DNA of 64,000 bases, from positions 2,480,001 to 2,544,000 of the forward strand of contig NZ_JAGIOI010000001.1 in the NCBI RefSeq assembly GCF_017876675.1, given 5' to 3'. The notes beneath the pieces are model-generated. The model did not search any database. It was not told the origin of the DNA and was given only the letters and a program-made list of their open reading frames with translations. Position 1 is the first letter of the stretch; each line of letters starts with the position of its first letter. The translations under genes were made by a program, and so were the position numbers. The stretch is from Arthrobacter stackebrandtii (GTDB lineage: Bacteria > Actinomycetota > Actinomycetes > Actinomycetales > Micrococcaceae). Below, piece by piece: positions 35,822-62,636 of the stretch.

Positions 35822-35936
35822 CAGGTGCGACAGGGGCCAGCCGGAAGCGGTCATTGCTGCGACGGCGTTGGCTGGAAAGCGGTCATTGCTGCGATGGGAT
35901 CGGCTGGAAAGCGTTTCTTGCTGCGACAGGGTCGGG
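35822..35936 (+). repeat. 32-bp repeat array, forward orientation (locus A right)
   Basis: Four copies with the anchor TGCGA at 35826, 35858, 35890 and 35922, each 32 bp apart. The best copies read GTCATTGCTGCGA then GGCTGGAAAGCG. The last copy runs into the 18-G tract. Confidence 0.85.
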
Positions 35937-35951
35937 GGGGGGGGGGGGGGG
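35934..35951 (+). repeat. 18-nt G homopolymer
   Basis: Eighteen consecutive G lie 85 bp upstream of glmM, directly after the repeat array. Such a tract is prone to slippage and could also be a sequencing or assembly artefact. Confidence 0.8.
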
Positions 35952-44118: not shown

Positions 44119-46239
44119 ATGATGGAAGTTTGGCCGGGCAGGGACCACCCCCTGGGTGCGCACGTGGACGAAGGCGGCACGAATTTCGCACTGTTCAGCG
44201 ACGGGGCCCAATCCGTGACGTTGTGCCTCTTTGATGACGAGGGCCGGGAAACCCAGCTGCCGCTGACCGAGGTGGACGGCTATGTGTGGCACGGCTATGT
44301 GCCGGGCATCGGCGAGGGACAGAGGTACGGCTACCGCGTGGGCGGACCCTGGGACCCTGCAAACGGCCTGCGGTTCAATGCCGCCAAGCTGCTGCTGGAC
44401 CCCTATGCGAGAGGTGTCGACGGAAGCGTGGCCTGGGGACAGCCCGTGTACGGGCACCGGCAGAACGATCCGCTGGTGCGCAGCGACGAGGACTCCGCAC
44501 CCCACACCTTCAAGGGCGTGGTGGTGGACGGCCGCTTCGACTGGACCCATCCCGACGGCAGCACGGACGCCAAGCCGGACATTCCGTACTCCCACACCGT
44601 GATCTATGAGGCCCACGTCAAGGGCCTCACCGCCCTGCACCCGGACGTCCCGCCCGAACAGCGCGGGCGCTACGCCGCGGTGGCGCACCCCGCGGTCGTG
44701 GCCCACCTCAAAAAGGTGGGAGTGACCGCCGTCGAGCTGATGCCTGTGCACCAGTTTGTCCAGGACGAGCGGCTGCAGGGGATGGGGCTGCGGAACTATT
44801 GGGGCTACAACACCATTGGGTTTTTCGCCCCGCACAATGAATATGCGGCGGCGTCGGACCCGTGCGACCAGGTGCGCGAGTTCAAGGCCATGGTCAAGGA
44901 ACTGCACCGCAACGGGCTGGAGGTGATCTTGGACGTGGTGTACAACCACACGGCGGAGGGCAACCACCTGGGGCCCACGCTGTCTTTCCGCGGGATCGAC
45001 AACGACGCGTATTACCGGCTGCAGGAGGACAAATCGCTGTACCTGGACTACACCGGCACGGGAAACTCGCTCAACGTCCGACAGCCGCACGCACTCCAGC
45101 TGATCATGGACTCGCTGCGCTACTGGGTCACGGAAATGCATGTTGACGGCTTCCGCTTTGATTTGGCGGCCACCCTGGCGCGGGAGTTTTACGACGTCGA
45201 CAAGCTCTCCACGTTCTTTGAGATGGTGCAGCAGGATCCCGTGGTCTCACATGTGAAACTCATTGCGGAGCCGTGGGACCTGGGGCCGGGAGGCTACCAA
45301 GTGGGCAACTTTCCGCCGCAGTGGACGGAATGGAACGGGCAGTTCCGGGACACGGTCCGCGATTTCTGGCGCAGCGAGCCCTCCACACTGGGCGAATTTG
45401 CGTCCCGGCTTACAGGGTCATCGGACCTTTACGGCCATTCCGGGCGCCGGCCGGTGGCCTCGATCAACTTTGTCACGGCGCACGACGGCTTCACGCTGGC
45501 GGACCTGGTCAGCTACAACGACAAGCACAACGAGGCGAACGGGGAGGACAACCGCGACGGTGAATCGCACAACCGCTCCTGGAACTTCGGCATCGAAGGG
45601 CCCACGGACGATCCCGCCGTGCAGGAGCTGAGGGCCCGCCAGCAGCGCAATTTCCTCACCACGCTGATGCTCTCGCAGGGTGTCCCGATGCTGCTGCACG
45701 GCGACGAACTGGGCCGCAGCCAGCAGGGCAACAACAACGCCTACGCGCAGGATTCGCCGCTGAGCTGGATCGACTGGGGGCGCGCCGACGCGCAGCTCAT
45801 CGACTTTGTCTCCCGGCTGGCACGGCTGCGGGAAGCGCACCCGGTGTTCCGCCGTCGCCGGTACTTTGACGGGCACCCGGTGGAGCGCGGGGACGACGGC
45901 GCGCTGCCGGACATTGTGTGGCTGCGACCCGACGCTGCAGCCATGGCGCCGGCGGACTGGGACAGCGGATTCGGGCGCAGCATCGGGGTGTTCCTCAACG
46001 GCGGGGGCATCCAGGAACCGGATGTGCACGGGCGGGCCGTGGTGGACGACTGCTTCCTCCTGCTGTTCAACGGGGGTGCGGAGCCCGTCGGCTTCACACT
46101 GCCGGGCGACGACTACGCGGCCCGGTGGGTGGTGGAAATCCACACGGACGGGGTTGCTGCGGACGCCTTCGGTGCCGGGGAGGAAGTGGCGGTGGCTGCC
46201 CGGTCCGTGTTGGTGCTGCGGGCGCCGGGCCGGGACTAG
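44119..46239 (+). CDS. glgX: Glycogen debranching enzyme GlgX
   Basis: A 706-residue GH13_11 isoamylase-type debranching enzyme. The N-terminal beta domain (E-set/CBM48) covers ~1-150. Catalytic residues are Asp348 (HVDGFRFDLA), Glu384 (LIAEPWD) and Asp456 (FVTAHDG). The phrases NYWGYNTIGFFAPHNEYA and YNDKHNEANGEDNRDGESHN are GlgX/TreX hallmarks. AGGGGG precedes the first of two adjacent ATGs. It removes alpha-1,6 branches during glycogen breakdown. No other glycogen genes are adjacent. Confidence 0.96.
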   Translation: MMEVWPGRDHPLGAHVDEGGTNFALFSDGAQSVTLCLFDDEGRETQLPLTEVDGYVWHGYVPGIGEGQRYGYRVGGPWDPANGLRFNAAKLLLDPYARGVDGSVAWGQPVYGHRQNDPLVRSDEDSAPHTFKGVVVDGRFDWTHPDGSTDAKPDIPYSHTVIYEAHVKGLTALHPDVPPEQRGRYAAVAHPAVVAHLKKVGVTAVELMPVHQFVQDERLQGMGLRNYWGYNTIGFFAPHNEYAAASDPCDQVREFKAMVKELHRNGLEVILDVVYNHTAEGNHLGPTLSFRGIDNDAYYRLQEDKSLYLDYTGTGNSLNVRQPHALQLIMDSLRYWVTEMHVDGFRFDLAATLAREFYDVDKLSTFFEMVQQDPVVSHVKLIAEPWDLGPGGYQVGNFPPQWTEWNGQFRDTVRDFWRSEPSTLGEFASRLTGSSDLYGHSGRRPVASINFVTAHDGFTLADLVSYNDKHNEANGEDNRDGESHNRSWNFGIEGPTDDPAVQELRARQQRNFLTTLMLSQGVPMLLHGDELGRSQQGNNNAYAQDSPLSWIDWGRADAQLIDFVSRLARLREAHPVFRRRRYFDGHPVERGDDGALPDIVWLRPDAAAMAPADWDSGFGRSIGVFLNGGGIQEPDVHGRAVVDDCFLLLFNGGAEPVGFTLPGDDYAARWVVEIHTDGVAADAFGAGEEVAVAARSVLVLRAPGRD

Positions 46240-46276
46240 ATTTAGATCACAGTGAAAAAGTGGCAAGATGGCAGGT

Positions 46277-47314
46277 ATGACCTTTCACCCTGCGGAAAAC
46301 CGCTATGAAACCATGCCCTACCGCCGCGTCGGCCGCAGCGGGCTGAAACTGCCCGCGATTTCCCTGGGGCTGTGGCACAACTTTGGCGACGACAAGCCGT
46401 TCGACGTGCAGCGGGACATCCTGCGCCGCGCCTTTGACCTGGGTGTCACCCACTTTGACCTGGCCAACAACTACGGCCCGCCCGCCGGCAGTGCCGAGAC
46501 CAACTTTGGCCGCCATTTCAAGGACGACTTCCGCGCCCACCGCAACGAGCTGGTCATCTCCACCAAGGCCGGCTACCTCATGTGGCCGGGCCCGTACGGG
46601 GAGTGGGGTTCGCGCAAGAGCCTGCTGGGCAGCCTGGACGAGTCGCTGACCCGCATGGGCCTGGACTATGTGGACATCTTCTACAGCCACCGCCCCGACC
46701 CGGACACGCCCCTGGAAGAGACCATGGGTGCCCTGGACCACGCCGTCCGCTCCGGCAAGGCGCTCTACGCGGGCATCTCTTCCTACACCCCGGCCCAGAC
46801 CCTTGAAGCTGCCCGGATCCTGAAGGAAATGGGCACCCCGCTGCTCATCCACCAGCCCTCCTACTCCATGCTCAACCGCTGGACCGAGGACGGGGAACCG
46901 AACCTGTACGAGACGCTCGAGACCGTTGGTGCCGGCTCCATCGCCTTCTCCCCGTTGGCGCAGGGAGTGTTGACCGACCGTTACCTCAAGGGCGTGCCGT
47001 CCGATTCCCGCGCCGCCAAGGAACACTTCCTGCACGCGCACGACCTCACCGAAGAGAAGATGGCCCGGGTGCGGGGCCTGAACGACATCGCAGCCGGGCG
47101 CGGCCAGTCCCTCGCCCAGATGGCGATCGCCTGGATCCTCCGCGAGCAGGCCAAGGGCACTCCCGTCACCTCGGCCCTCGTGGGGGCGTCCAGTGTGTCC
47201 CAGCTGGAGAATAACGTCGCCGCCATCAACAACCTTGGGTTCAGCGACGGCGAGCTGGCCGCCATCGACGAGTTCGCCGTCGAATCCGACATCAACAGGT
47301 GGGCGCAGAAGTAG
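46277..47314 (+). CDS. Aldo/keto reductase, YghZ-like
   Basis: A 345-residue NADPH-dependent oxidoreductase of the TIM-barrel AKR family. The tetrad is visible: Asp and Tyr in FDLANNYGPPAGSAE, Lys in VISTKAGYLMWPGPYG and His in FYSHRPDP. MPYRRVGRSGLKLPAISLGLWHNFG and the LMWPGPYGEWGSRK segment match the L-glyceraldehyde-3-phosphate reductase (YghZ/AKR14) branch, active on methylglyoxal and similar aldehydes. The start could also be the ATG at 46268, three codons earlier. Confidence 0.92.
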   Translation: MTFHPAENRYETMPYRRVGRSGLKLPAISLGLWHNFGDDKPFDVQRDILRRAFDLGVTHFDLANNYGPPAGSAETNFGRHFKDDFRAHRNELVISTKAGYLMWPGPYGEWGSRKSLLGSLDESLTRMGLDYVDIFYSHRPDPDTPLEETMGALDHAVRSGKALYAGISSYTPAQTLEAARILKEMGTPLLIHQPSYSMLNRWTEDGEPNLYETLETVGAGSIAFSPLAQGVLTDRYLKGVPSDSRAAKEHFLHAHDLTEEKMARVRGLNDIAAGRGQSLAQMAIAWILREQAKGTPVTSALVGASSVSQLENNVAAINNLGFSDGELAAIDEFAVESDINRWAQK

Positions 47315-48649: not shown

Positions 48650-48711
48650 GACGCTGTCGCAGCAATGGCTGGGTTTTCCCGAACGCCAGCGCAGCAATGG
48701 CTGAAAAACCG
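48650..48711 (-). repeat. 32-bp repeat array, reverse orientation (locus B)
   Basis: Two copies 32 bp apart (anchors TCGCA at 48657 and GCGCA at 48689). The outer 23 bp (48650-48672) match the inverse of 49827-49849 at 21 of 23 positions, so the array forms the left inverted end around the nuclease-like gene. Confidence 0.85.
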
Positions 48712-48713
48712 GA

Positions 48714-48744
48714 ACGCCCCCTCACTGCAGTGAGGGGGCGTTTT
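48714..48744. terminator. Terminator between ino1 and the convergent nuclease-like gene
   Basis: ACGCCCCCTCACTG and its exact complement form a 28-bp palindrome (48714-48741), followed by TTT on the plus strand. Confidence 0.88.
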
Positions 48745-48763
48745 GCGATGTTGGCGGCTGTTT

Positions 48764-49714
48764 CTAGGCCCCGGCCGCGAACCCGGAGGCAATGCTTGGA
48801 TCGACCCAGGCCTTCCGCAGCGCTGACCTGATCTGCCGCACCGCACCCTGAAAACCGTCAGCCAGGTCCTCGTCGGTGAACACCAGGACCATCCAGCCGG
48901 CTGCTTCGAAGGCCTTGTCCCGCCGCCGGTCGCTGTGCATCTGCTCCGGATCACGGTGGTGCGCGCCGTCGTACTGGAGCGCGATGCGCCGTTCCCTGTA
49001 CCCAGCATCGGCGGACGGGGAATTCCTGCTGCTCCAGAGCTTCAGCTGCAAATCCGGCTCCGGCAGGCCGGCGTTGAGCATTGCGAGGCGAAGCAGAGTT
49101 TCCGGGGCAGAATCAGAGCCGACGCGCATGAGCTCCAACGCCTCCCGGGCACGCACGATGCCCTGGAGGTTCTTGTGCCGCTCCAGCATGGCCCGGAGCT
49201 GGCCAATCGTGGCGTACGGTTTGCTGCGGCCATCAAACTCCGGACGGGGAATGCGGATGATCTGGTCTCCCATGCACACCAAGTCGGCCAGCGGGAGAAC
49301 CCTGGCCATGTCGAGCCACGTGCGGGCCCTCGTGCCCATGACGAGCTCGCCGTCGCTTTCAATTTCGCCCGGGAAAAACGTCATCTTGTGCCCAACGATT
49401 CCCTTCCGGCGGGCTTCAGCTGTTCCGGCAGCCTTGCTCAAGTGCAGGTCATTGGAGGTGCCAAGCCACGGAGGCAGGACCAAACCATGCAGCCTCGCCG
49501 CCGTGGAATGGGAAATCCAGGCCCCGGGTGAGGCCGCGCAGAGTGCCCGCGCGGCCTCACGAAGGTTGAAATCGCTGTCCGACAGGCGGTACAGGCGGTA
49601 ACTGACATGTTCCACGGACTTGCGCCTGAGCACACTCCGTGGGATGCCACGCGCCCGTGCCTCATCCAGCGTGAACGGGGACTCGGGGATGCTGAATGCT
49701 TCGGTGGATTCCAT
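48764..49714 (-). CDS. AbiEi/DUF559-like protein with Vsr-type nuclease fold
   Basis: A 316-residue soluble protein. Residues 10-80 resemble the AbiEi-type winged-helix start (FTLDEARARGIPRSVLRR, WISHSTAARLHGL). The C-terminal part (200-290) has the DUF559/Vsr PD-(D/E)XK layout: Glu205, Asp236, then LQYDGAHHRDPEQMHSDRRRD and GWMVLVFTDED. In the usual ExD pair the Glu is here Gln247 (QYD), so activity is uncertain. It lies between 32-bp repeat arrays in inverted orientation. Possible roles are defence, toxin-antitoxin or repeat mobilisation; none is shown. It is preceded by CAGAAT 6 nt before the ATG. Confidence 0.75.
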   Translation of the reverse strand: MESTEAFSIPESPFTLDEARARGIPRSVLRRKSVEHVSYRLYRLSDSDFNLREAARALCAASPGAWISHSTAARLHGLVLPPWLGTSNDLHLSKAAGTAEARRKGIVGHKMTFFPGEIESDGELVMGTRARTWLDMARVLPLADLVCMGDQIIRIPRPEFDGRSKPYATIGQLRAMLERHKNLQGIVRAREALELMRVGSDSAPETLLRLAMLNAGLPEPDLQLKLWSSRNSPSADAGYRERRIALQYDGAHHRDPEQMHSDRRRDKAFEAAGWMVLVFTDEDLADGFQGAVRQIRSALRKAWVDPSIASGFAAGA

Positions 49715-49720
49715 GTGGCC

Positions 49721-49726
49721 ATTCTG
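49721..49726 (-). promoter_or_regulatory. Candidate -10 of a leaderless transcript
   Basis: CAGAAT on the minus strand ends 6 nt before the ATG of the nuclease-like gene. No ribosome site is visible. Confidence 0.4.
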
Positions 49727-49766
49727 GCGGATTTGGCACTTTCGTGCTCAAAGTTATCCACAGGCA

Positions 49767-49854
49767 CGGCTGCTGCGACAGGGCTGCTCGAAAAGCCGTC
49801 ATTGCTGCGATGGCGTCACTGAAAAACCAGCCATTGCTGCGATGGCGTCGGGAA
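49767..49854 (+). repeat. 32-bp repeat array, forward orientation (locus C)
   Basis: Three copies with TGCGA anchors at 49774, 49806 and 49838, each 32 bp apart. The outer copy ends at 49849 with GCGATGGCGTC. It is the right inverted partner of locus B. Confidence 0.85.
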
Positions 49855-62253: not shown

Positions 62254-62636
62254 GGTGCTGTAAACCTTTCAACGGGATCCGCCCTGCGTCATTGCAGGGC
62301 AGTTCATGCTTGGCTGGCCGGCCCGAAGTCCTTGGTGATGATCGGTCCTTGCGGTTTTGGCCATACTGCATCAGGTTAGCTACTGCCGGGTAGTTTGTGA
62401 CCCCCACGGCAGGGGCGGGGCGAAAGACTGTCCAAAAGGACAATTTTTGCATGGTTCCAAGTCCCGGGACCATGGGCATGTGGGCGCAGCCGGGGGAGGG
62501 TGGCGCATGCATGGTGCGAGAGCGTCGGGTGGGAAACGACCATTGGTGCGAGCGCGTCGGGTGGGAAACGGTCATTGGTGCGATGGCGTCGGGAAAAAGC
62601 GGCGCTTATGTGATGCGGCGTTGCATGGCGGAGGGG
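62254..62636. other. Region upstream of the subtilase gene
   Basis: A 383-bp gene-free interval holding the locus E repeat array (62510-62603) and the presumed subtilase promoter. A short TGTCC-AAAA-GGACA hairpin lies near 62429-62444 and is followed by ATTTTT on the plus strand. No clear promoter boxes were fixed. Confidence 0.5.
62510..62603 (+). repeat. 32-bp repeat array, forward orientation (locus E)
   Basis: Three copies with TGCGA anchors at 62515, 62547 and 62579, each 32 bp apart. Here the core reads CATTGGTGCGA with GTCGGGTGGGAAACG, a variant of the other loci. No reverse-oriented partner is visible to the left. Confidence 0.85.

Follow-up and report, generated by a model that had tools for sequence, protein, structure and literature searches.

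A DUF559/AbiEi-like gene bracketed by inward-facing arrays of a gene-specific 32-bp repeat in Arthrobacter and related genera

Described systems and the window locus

Several described systems resemble parts of the locus analyzed here. Excerpts of PMC3733652 describe REP/RAYT systems, in which the repeats lie mostly downstream of genes and some repeat families are species-specific, and the CGTC REPs, palindromes without a dedicated transposase that occur mainly in alphaproteobacteria; the string 'actinobacter' does not occur in the main text of that paper. According to parts of PMC7319586, AbiEi binds two 23-bp inverted repeats that are 3 bp apart, the Rv2827c pairs are 13 bp apart, and known AbiEi proteins autoregulate via inverted repeats. 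I-Bth0305I is a homing endonuclease with a long target (PMC3943268, in part). The DNA uptake sequences of Neisseria and Pasteurellaceae form species dialects, occur as inverted pairs at gene ends and double as terminators (PMC1852404, in part). In the part of the literature that we covered, we found no description of the arrays reported below or of DUF559 genes with cognate repeats.

The window, a stretch of 64,000 nucleotides from 2,480,001 to 2,544,000 of the 4.43-Mb single-contig genome of Arthrobacter stackebrandtii, contains a gene for a 316-aa protein that lies between two inward-facing arrays of a 32-bp repeat, B and C (Table 1). The original prediction described a nuclease-like gene enclosed by inverted repeat arrays, and this observation is confirmed: the arrays bracket exactly one ORF, their outer 23 bases match in inverted orientation at 21 of 23 positions, and the link between gene and repeat holds. 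A pair of 51-nt arms is 84% complementary. The reverse-then-forward arrangement without cargo that had been noted at loci A and D is also present. The perfect hairpin beside array B runs at its end into GTTTTG, has an MFE of -28.9, and forms a terminator-like centre (P) of that array. An Rfam search gave no match at gathering scores. The genes that we call ino1, amylase, rpsI, glmM and fdhD presumably are what these names say; we assigned them by eye from the sequence.

Table 1. Positions of repeat arrays and associated features in the window.
Feature	Start	End	Strand	Remarks
Locus A, cargo-less inverted element	35704	35933		Between rpsI and glmM
Array B	48650	48713	+	Two 32-bp units (48650, 48682), 12 bp past ino1 stop, pointing toward gene
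Perfect hairpin, 15+15	48713	48742		Starts 31 bp past start of second unit of array B
Gene, 316-aa protein	48764	49714	-	Sole ORF between arrays B and C
TGTGGATAAC box	49753	49762	-	Upstream of gene, contains DnaA-box-like TTATCCACA
Degenerate third unit of array C	49754	49785	-	32-bp register kept, extends into TGTGGATAA box
Array C	49786	49849	-	Two 32-bp units (beginning at 49849 and 49817 in minus-strand sense), 21 bp past stop of amylase-family gene, pointing toward gene
Locus D, cargo-less inverted element	58254	58442		2 units + 2 units
Locus E, one-sided array	62533	62622	-	First-dialect part 62533-62590

As in REP/RAYT systems, the window gene has inverted copies of a repeat on its two sides, and further copies are scattered elsewhere without it. 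Unlike in those systems, the protein is of AbiEi-EDxHD type and not a Y1 tyrosine transposase, and the units are 32-bp tandem and helix-phased, with no GTAG and no stable hairpins. The Y1 transposase family (PF01797) has no match in the A. stackebrandtii genome and is present in 2 of 23 genomes of the genus (genes L315 in G016 and L314 in G019). Because its genome has no match to a Y1 transposase, we do not place the window system in the RAYT family; the analogy that the original prediction drew with REP elements and their RAYT enzyme fits in layout and fails on the transposase. A likeness to the CGTC REPs lies in the outer end, which in most units of this genome is GACG (CGTC on the other strand); our palindrome tag test found GTAG in none of them, and the hairpin of this genome's unit is weak.

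The N-terminal fold is like that of AbiEi (6y8q) from the type IV toxin-antitoxin system AbiE, and the 3- or 13-bp gaps of the published operators find a parallel in the 3- or 13-base loops of the window-type elements. Unlike AbiE, the window gene has no adjoining AbiEii (DUF1814) toxin, its product has a fused nuclease-like domain, and there are tens to hundreds of dispersed sites. The C-terminal fold resembles the EDxHD enzyme I-Bth0305I (3r3p) and the Vsr-like DUF559 proteins, but unlike the gene for I-Bth0305I the window gene is outside any intron or intein, and its presumed targets are dispersed tandem arrays. Compared with DNA uptake sequences, the window repeats are far fewer and 32-bp tandem, with dialects that belong to single genes and not to whole genomes; we set aside a reading as an uptake dialect because two dialects coexist in one genome.

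Structure and placement of the repeat

In sense-strand orientation the unit consensus in the A. stackebrandtii genome is approximately RACGCYRTCGCAGCAATGGCnGGTTTTTCC. Its core CATTGCTGCGAYGGC has 262 matches with at most 2 mismatches in the 4.43-Mb genome, versus 24 for a reversed-pattern control. The 690 kb that we examined contain 179 units in 101 arrays–densities that are not genome averages, because the pieces were partly picked for matches–and all 78 of 78 within-array spacings are 32 bp. The full form of the element is R-R-P-R'-R', where P is a palindrome built from bases 1-13 of the unit. Among elements with the commonest gap (41), 8 of 11 have at least 11 of 13 palindrome pairs, with 3-base loops; elements with a gap of 51 have a central palindrome with 13-base loops. 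Compared from locus to locus, the spacer (columns 29-32) is close to random, at 0.32 versus 0.27 expected.

Same-strand spacings in six genomes number 149; of these, 144 are 32 bp and four are 64. The 59 inverted gaps have their mode at 41, followed by 51, 61-62, 71-75, 82-84 and 102-105, with exceptions such as 35, 65 and 152. They favour a period of 10.5-10.75 bp (jitter test, p = 2e-4), which also holds for the 37 distinct genome-gap values; the 10.5-bp signal comes in part from the unit length itself, which at 32 bp makes about three helical turns, and since hidden units add 32 bp the independent part of the period is the 30/41/52 series. The combination of 32-bp units with gap steps of about 10.5 bp is a pattern pointing to a protein that would be bound to the DNA. 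G004, which was outside the period test, also has 31-bp spacings. A de novo tandem scan found 32 bp to be the commonest spacing in samples of six genomes of the genus, though weakly so in G021 (tied with 41) and G004 (3 versus 2), and found no 32-bp tandem spacing in G017 or in three other genera, sampled at 100 kb each.

Using our own simple gene caller, we placed 100 of the 101 arrays relative to genes. They occupy 68 intergenic regions, of which 38 are tandem, 30 convergent and none divergent. In an evenly spaced sample plus the window, arrays were present in 12 of 202 tandem, 4 of 40 convergent and 0 of 51 divergent regions (16/293 overall). Of the arrays in tandem regions, 37 run in the sense of the preceding gene and 16 antisense to it, 14 of these 16 being the inverted partner of another array; solo arrays there are 23 sense and 2 antisense. 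The overall total of 84 sense arrays in 100 overstates the bias because an array between convergent genes counts as sense on whichever strand it lies. The median distance of an array past the stop codon is 36 nt.

Locus A lies past a separate terminator-like hairpin of rpsI, and a run of 18 G (35934-35951 in the window) is found immediately outside it. Its element occurs at the same site in 3 of 6 genomes compared and is absent in the other 3; at the site in G005 (46086-46448, reoriented; L151-L154) a different inverted repeat, GGGGCCGTTGTGGTGATC, replaces the RACGC element. At locus E, the outermost unit (62591-62622) belongs to a second dialect (GCCGCATCACATAA) and keeps the 32-bp register; second-dialect units are likewise in register with first-dialect units at 260,643 and 2,370,125. 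Six inverted units in G022 (C11:774652-774959) and one in G001 (C1:2406155-2406302) possibly occupy the same locus, in which case the number of units differs in 32-bp steps.

Repeat cores among close homologues

Homologues of the gene are found in the named relatives Arthrobacter, Pseudarthrobacter and Paenarthrobacter, and 18 relatives have it between ino1 and amylase (19 syntenic loci). The case that the original prediction regarded as contrary to it, the gene being present in relatives without repeats, does not refute it: among the relatives only G012 and G020 have the window's exact core at this site, yet the same two spots have 32-bp arrays with different cores. Among loci with both arrays detected, and with duplicates removed, the cores of B and C agree at 14.07 of 15 positions within a genome versus 7.72 between genomes (n = 14, permutation p = 5e-5), and the partner from the same locus is the best match in 13 of 14. 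Columns 21-32 show no such agreement (5.79 of 12 within versus 5.00 between). Gene and arrays are both missing between ino1 and amylase in G010. In a survey of the family, 35 loci read at ino1 comprised 6 with array and gene, 1 with the array alone (L270), 2 with the gene alone (L247 and L248) and 26 with neither. The comparison with relatives that had been proposed for finding empty sites turned up absences, at locus A and in G010; the flanks of the compared loci are too diverged for a target duplication or a clean empty site to be read. One record in our data, titled Sporosarcina beigongshangi REN13 (L159, L162), has Arthrobacter gene order, and its title looks wrong.

In most of the 18 relatives the gene is kept but the exact core is not, and an initial reading therefore took B and C for separate elements at the 3' ends of ino1 and amylase, with the gene as a bystander. 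This was overturned by arrays at homologues away from ino1 and by the control. With a strict caller, we searched for inward-facing arrays around 95 close homologues and, as a control, in 848 nearby windows on either strand. An inward array was present upstream in 71/95, downstream in 64/95 and on both sides in 53/95, as against 28/848 control windows; 42/95 had no detected array on one side or more. Outward-facing arrays were upstream in 9/95 and downstream in 27/95. For homologues with ino1 in the locus the counts were 51/58 upstream, 46/58 downstream and 42/58 on both sides, for those linked to fdhD 1/4, 4/4 and 1/4, and for those away from both genes 19/33, 14/33 and 10/33, with at least one inward array in 23/33. 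A loose caller that accepted any orientation, applied to 80 named homologues, found arrays on both sides in 30 of 35 within 700 bp of ino1 and in 21 of 45 others. Homologues elsewhere are therefore bracketed above background, as the original prediction had proposed to check, and more weakly away from ino1.

The cores are specific to the gene, which upholds the inferred link between gene and repeat. Upstream and downstream cores of about 15 nt agree at 11.96 of 15 positions for the same gene versus 7.79 between genes (permutation p = 5e-5, n = 53), and different genes within one genome have different cores (G000, G012, G003, G016, G006 and G011). The second gene of the A. stackebrandtii genome, at 826,779, is bracketed by GCSGCATCAGATAA (core 2), and the second gene of G012 has a bracket of the same core. 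GCSGCATCAGATAA is dispersed, with 70 matches in the A. stackebrandtii genome, 66 in G012, 20 in G006, 12 in G014 and at most 8 elsewhere; its controls gave 0-6 across genomes and 1 in A. stackebrandtii. Other cores are similarly concentrated: GCSGTATCACYTTTGG has 118, 83 and 47 matches in G005, G013 and G004 and 2-18 in the other 20 genomes, GCTCGCTCACTCCACGTCG has 70 and 61 in G022 and G001 and 0-1 in 21 others, and GCTCGGTTGCAACCGGGG has 73, 47, 45 and 8 in G009, G003, G018 and G021 and 0-3 in 19 others. The genomes rich in a core (G005/G013/G004, G001/G022, G009/G003/G018 and G021) have a gene bracketed by that core or by a variant of 1-2 bases. Our prediction that the second gene of G016 would carry that genome's common dispersed core, TCCTGCAGATAAGGG, failed.

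All 95 close homologues have the TGTGGATAAC box (with at most 1 mismatch) upstream, as do 15 of 21 distant paralogues; none of 311 random genes does. An exact TGTGGATAA is found in 93 of those close homologues and 13 of those distant ones. The box contains TTATCCACA, a DnaA-box-like sequence that is perfect in the window copy.

The protein, its possible roles and its distant paralogues

The genomes of the genus have 4-15 matches each to DUF559/AbiEi-like genes; we know of no named function for the Pfam family DUF559. A structure model of the 316-aa protein (pLDDT 89.4) has only one match below 0.001, to AbiEi (6y8q; E = 3.5e-4, TMt 0.49), and matches the catalytic domain of I-Bth0305I (3r3p) with E = 0.012, probability 1.0 and TMt 0.71. 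PADLOC models of AbiEi match the N-terminal half (E = 7e-9). Pfam finds DUF559 in 39 and AbiEi_4 in 3 of 41 members. All 41 sequences share E205, D236, H253 and D262, and Q247 is nearly invariant; the four invariant residues are putatively the E, D, H and D of an EDxHD motif. On the modelled fold, the protein looks like an AbiEi-type DNA-binding N-terminal half joined to an EDxHD/Vsr-like (DUF559) C-terminal domain.

Together, gene and dialect suggest that protein and repeat are partners in a system that had gone unnoticed and that may be self-spreading. Our preferred reading, to which we give a probability of roughly 0.55, is a single-gene element with dispersed partners, a REP/RAYT-like partnership built on an unrelated AbiEi-EDxHD protein. 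The AbiEi-type half would recognize the 32-bp unit, and the C-terminal EDxHD (Vsr/homing-endonuclease-like) domain would be the nuclease. The protein would bind its cognate arrays cooperatively and repress its own promoter, where the final half-unit can extend into the conserved TGTGGATAAC box. A cut or nick at arrays, repaired from another array, would spread the repeats and re-standardize them, so that repeats and reader would change together. A bolder version, which strikes us as possible and rather doubtful, is a new class of self-spreading element in which AbiEi-EDxHD proteins, whose annotation until now is DUF559 or antitoxin-like, would each have a private dialect, bind it as helix-phased arrays, and both disperse it and keep it uniform through copying driven by their nuclease, possibly timed by DnaA via TTATCCACA. 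Points against spread are the position between ino1 and amylase, kept in 18 relatives unlike that of an active transposon, and the near-random spacers, which count against copying of whole elements unless it is old, because copying would not give them; the same grounds led us to reject gene conversion and any recent whole-unit copying. The preferred reading is further weakened by the failed G016 prediction, by the homologues with an array missing on one side or facing outward downstream, by the loci at ino1 with gene or array alone and, as described below, by the small share of phylum-wide DUF559 loci with inverted repeats and the scarcity of dispersed copies of distant paralogues' repeats. 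That the locus is a 1.2-kb mobile or defence unit, as had been suggested, stays a conjecture: gene order is kept in those relatives, no target duplication is readable, and we found no sign of defence beyond the similarity to AbiEi. If the preferred reading is correct, the pairing of gene to dialect gives DUF559/AbiEi-like genes a testable role, with a DNA target that is predictable from a gene's own flanks, and nature provides in these pairs of protein and site a series whose specificity shifts. A parallel to REP/RAYT with an unrelated protein would also bear on the origin and uniformity of dispersed repeats.

The main rival is a regulatory, non-mobile role, which we think unlikely while giving it more weight than the other alternatives. 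The protein, possibly non-cutting in vivo, would bind the 3'-end arrays as a roadblock, insulator or nucleoid organizer, the flanking arrays would be the gene's own operators, and the dialects would come from site-by-site co-evolution of reader and sites. The absence of divergent regions among the 68 that bear arrays, the mostly sense orientation of the arrays a short way past stop codons, and the autoregulation of known AbiEi proteins (PMC7319586, in part) all suit such a role, as do array positions at ino1 and amylase that are kept while the cores change and a spacer that is not homogenized. Locus A sits badly with it: that element is missing in half of the genomes compared and, with a separate terminator-like hairpin at rpsI, is not needed for termination there. 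A pure binder would also have no use for invariant residues at the putative catalytic positions. That the arrays act at the RNA level, as tandem intrinsic terminators or 3'-UTR hairpins with the gene as a bystander, we consider improbable. The 48 nt at the centre position do fold better than random intergenic DNA (median MFE -16.8, n = 101, versus -12.9, n = 566), and some dialects fold as unit hairpins (z = -3.6 for L045, -4.6 for L051 and -4.1 for L182), but unit folds are weak overall (mean z -1.06 over 39 first units, -0.2 in A. stackebrandtii), fewer than a third of the units (57 of 179) form a 5-bp stem, the RNA level offers no reason for the exact spacing or for gaps in helical steps, and the tie to one gene family is left unexplained. 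We rejected tandem terminators in particular because unit folding is weak and inconsistent, without a stable hairpin and U tract in each unit; the central hairpin of array B does fit them.

Comparably little weight goes to a defence or toxin-antitoxin unit of AbiE-like, abortive-infection type, with the arrays as self-marks or operators: the PADLOC matches to the N-terminal half favour it, but no partner toxin adjoins the gene, whose immediate neighbours in 19 loci are ino1 and the amylase-family gene. Least probable of all, by a wide distance from the preferred reading, is that common 3'-end repeats flank the gene by coincidence. Arrays are frequent in the A. stackebrandtii genome, and the 3' ends of ino1 and amylase both face the gene; against this, homologues distant from both ino1 and fdhD are still bracketed, and the core goes with the gene rather than with the genome.

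Should the bolder version, a self-spreading element, be real, distant paralogues flanked by unrelated inverted repeats would make it a large, unrecognized family. At 21 loci of paralogues with 28-44% identity, the RACGC-anchored caller flagged only L333 and L335, the latter being a true 32-bp tandem of another sequence. An anchor-free search found inverted repeats on both sides (at least 20 of 24 matches) in 16 of 22 unique distant paralogues, versus 1 of 283 random genes from genomes of the genus and family. Dispersed copies of these flanking repeats are few: L332 has 4 in 200 kb and L329 has 3 in 690 kb, each with a control of 0, L335 has 7 (control 3) and L327 has 1, with none for L325, L330, L334 and L321. 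The 38% paralogue L332 has its own repeat, TCCATTACGCAGTTGTTRGACC, which in the sample stretches of G016 also forms a dispersed +,+,- cluster with 29-bp spacing. In a phylum-wide sample of 30 PF04480 loci, 5 of the 24 that were readable beat shuffles for inverted repeats. The strongest versus shuffles were L349 and L360, DUF559 genes from distant actinobacterial genomes, with flanking inverted repeats that match at 23/24 and 24/24 positions.
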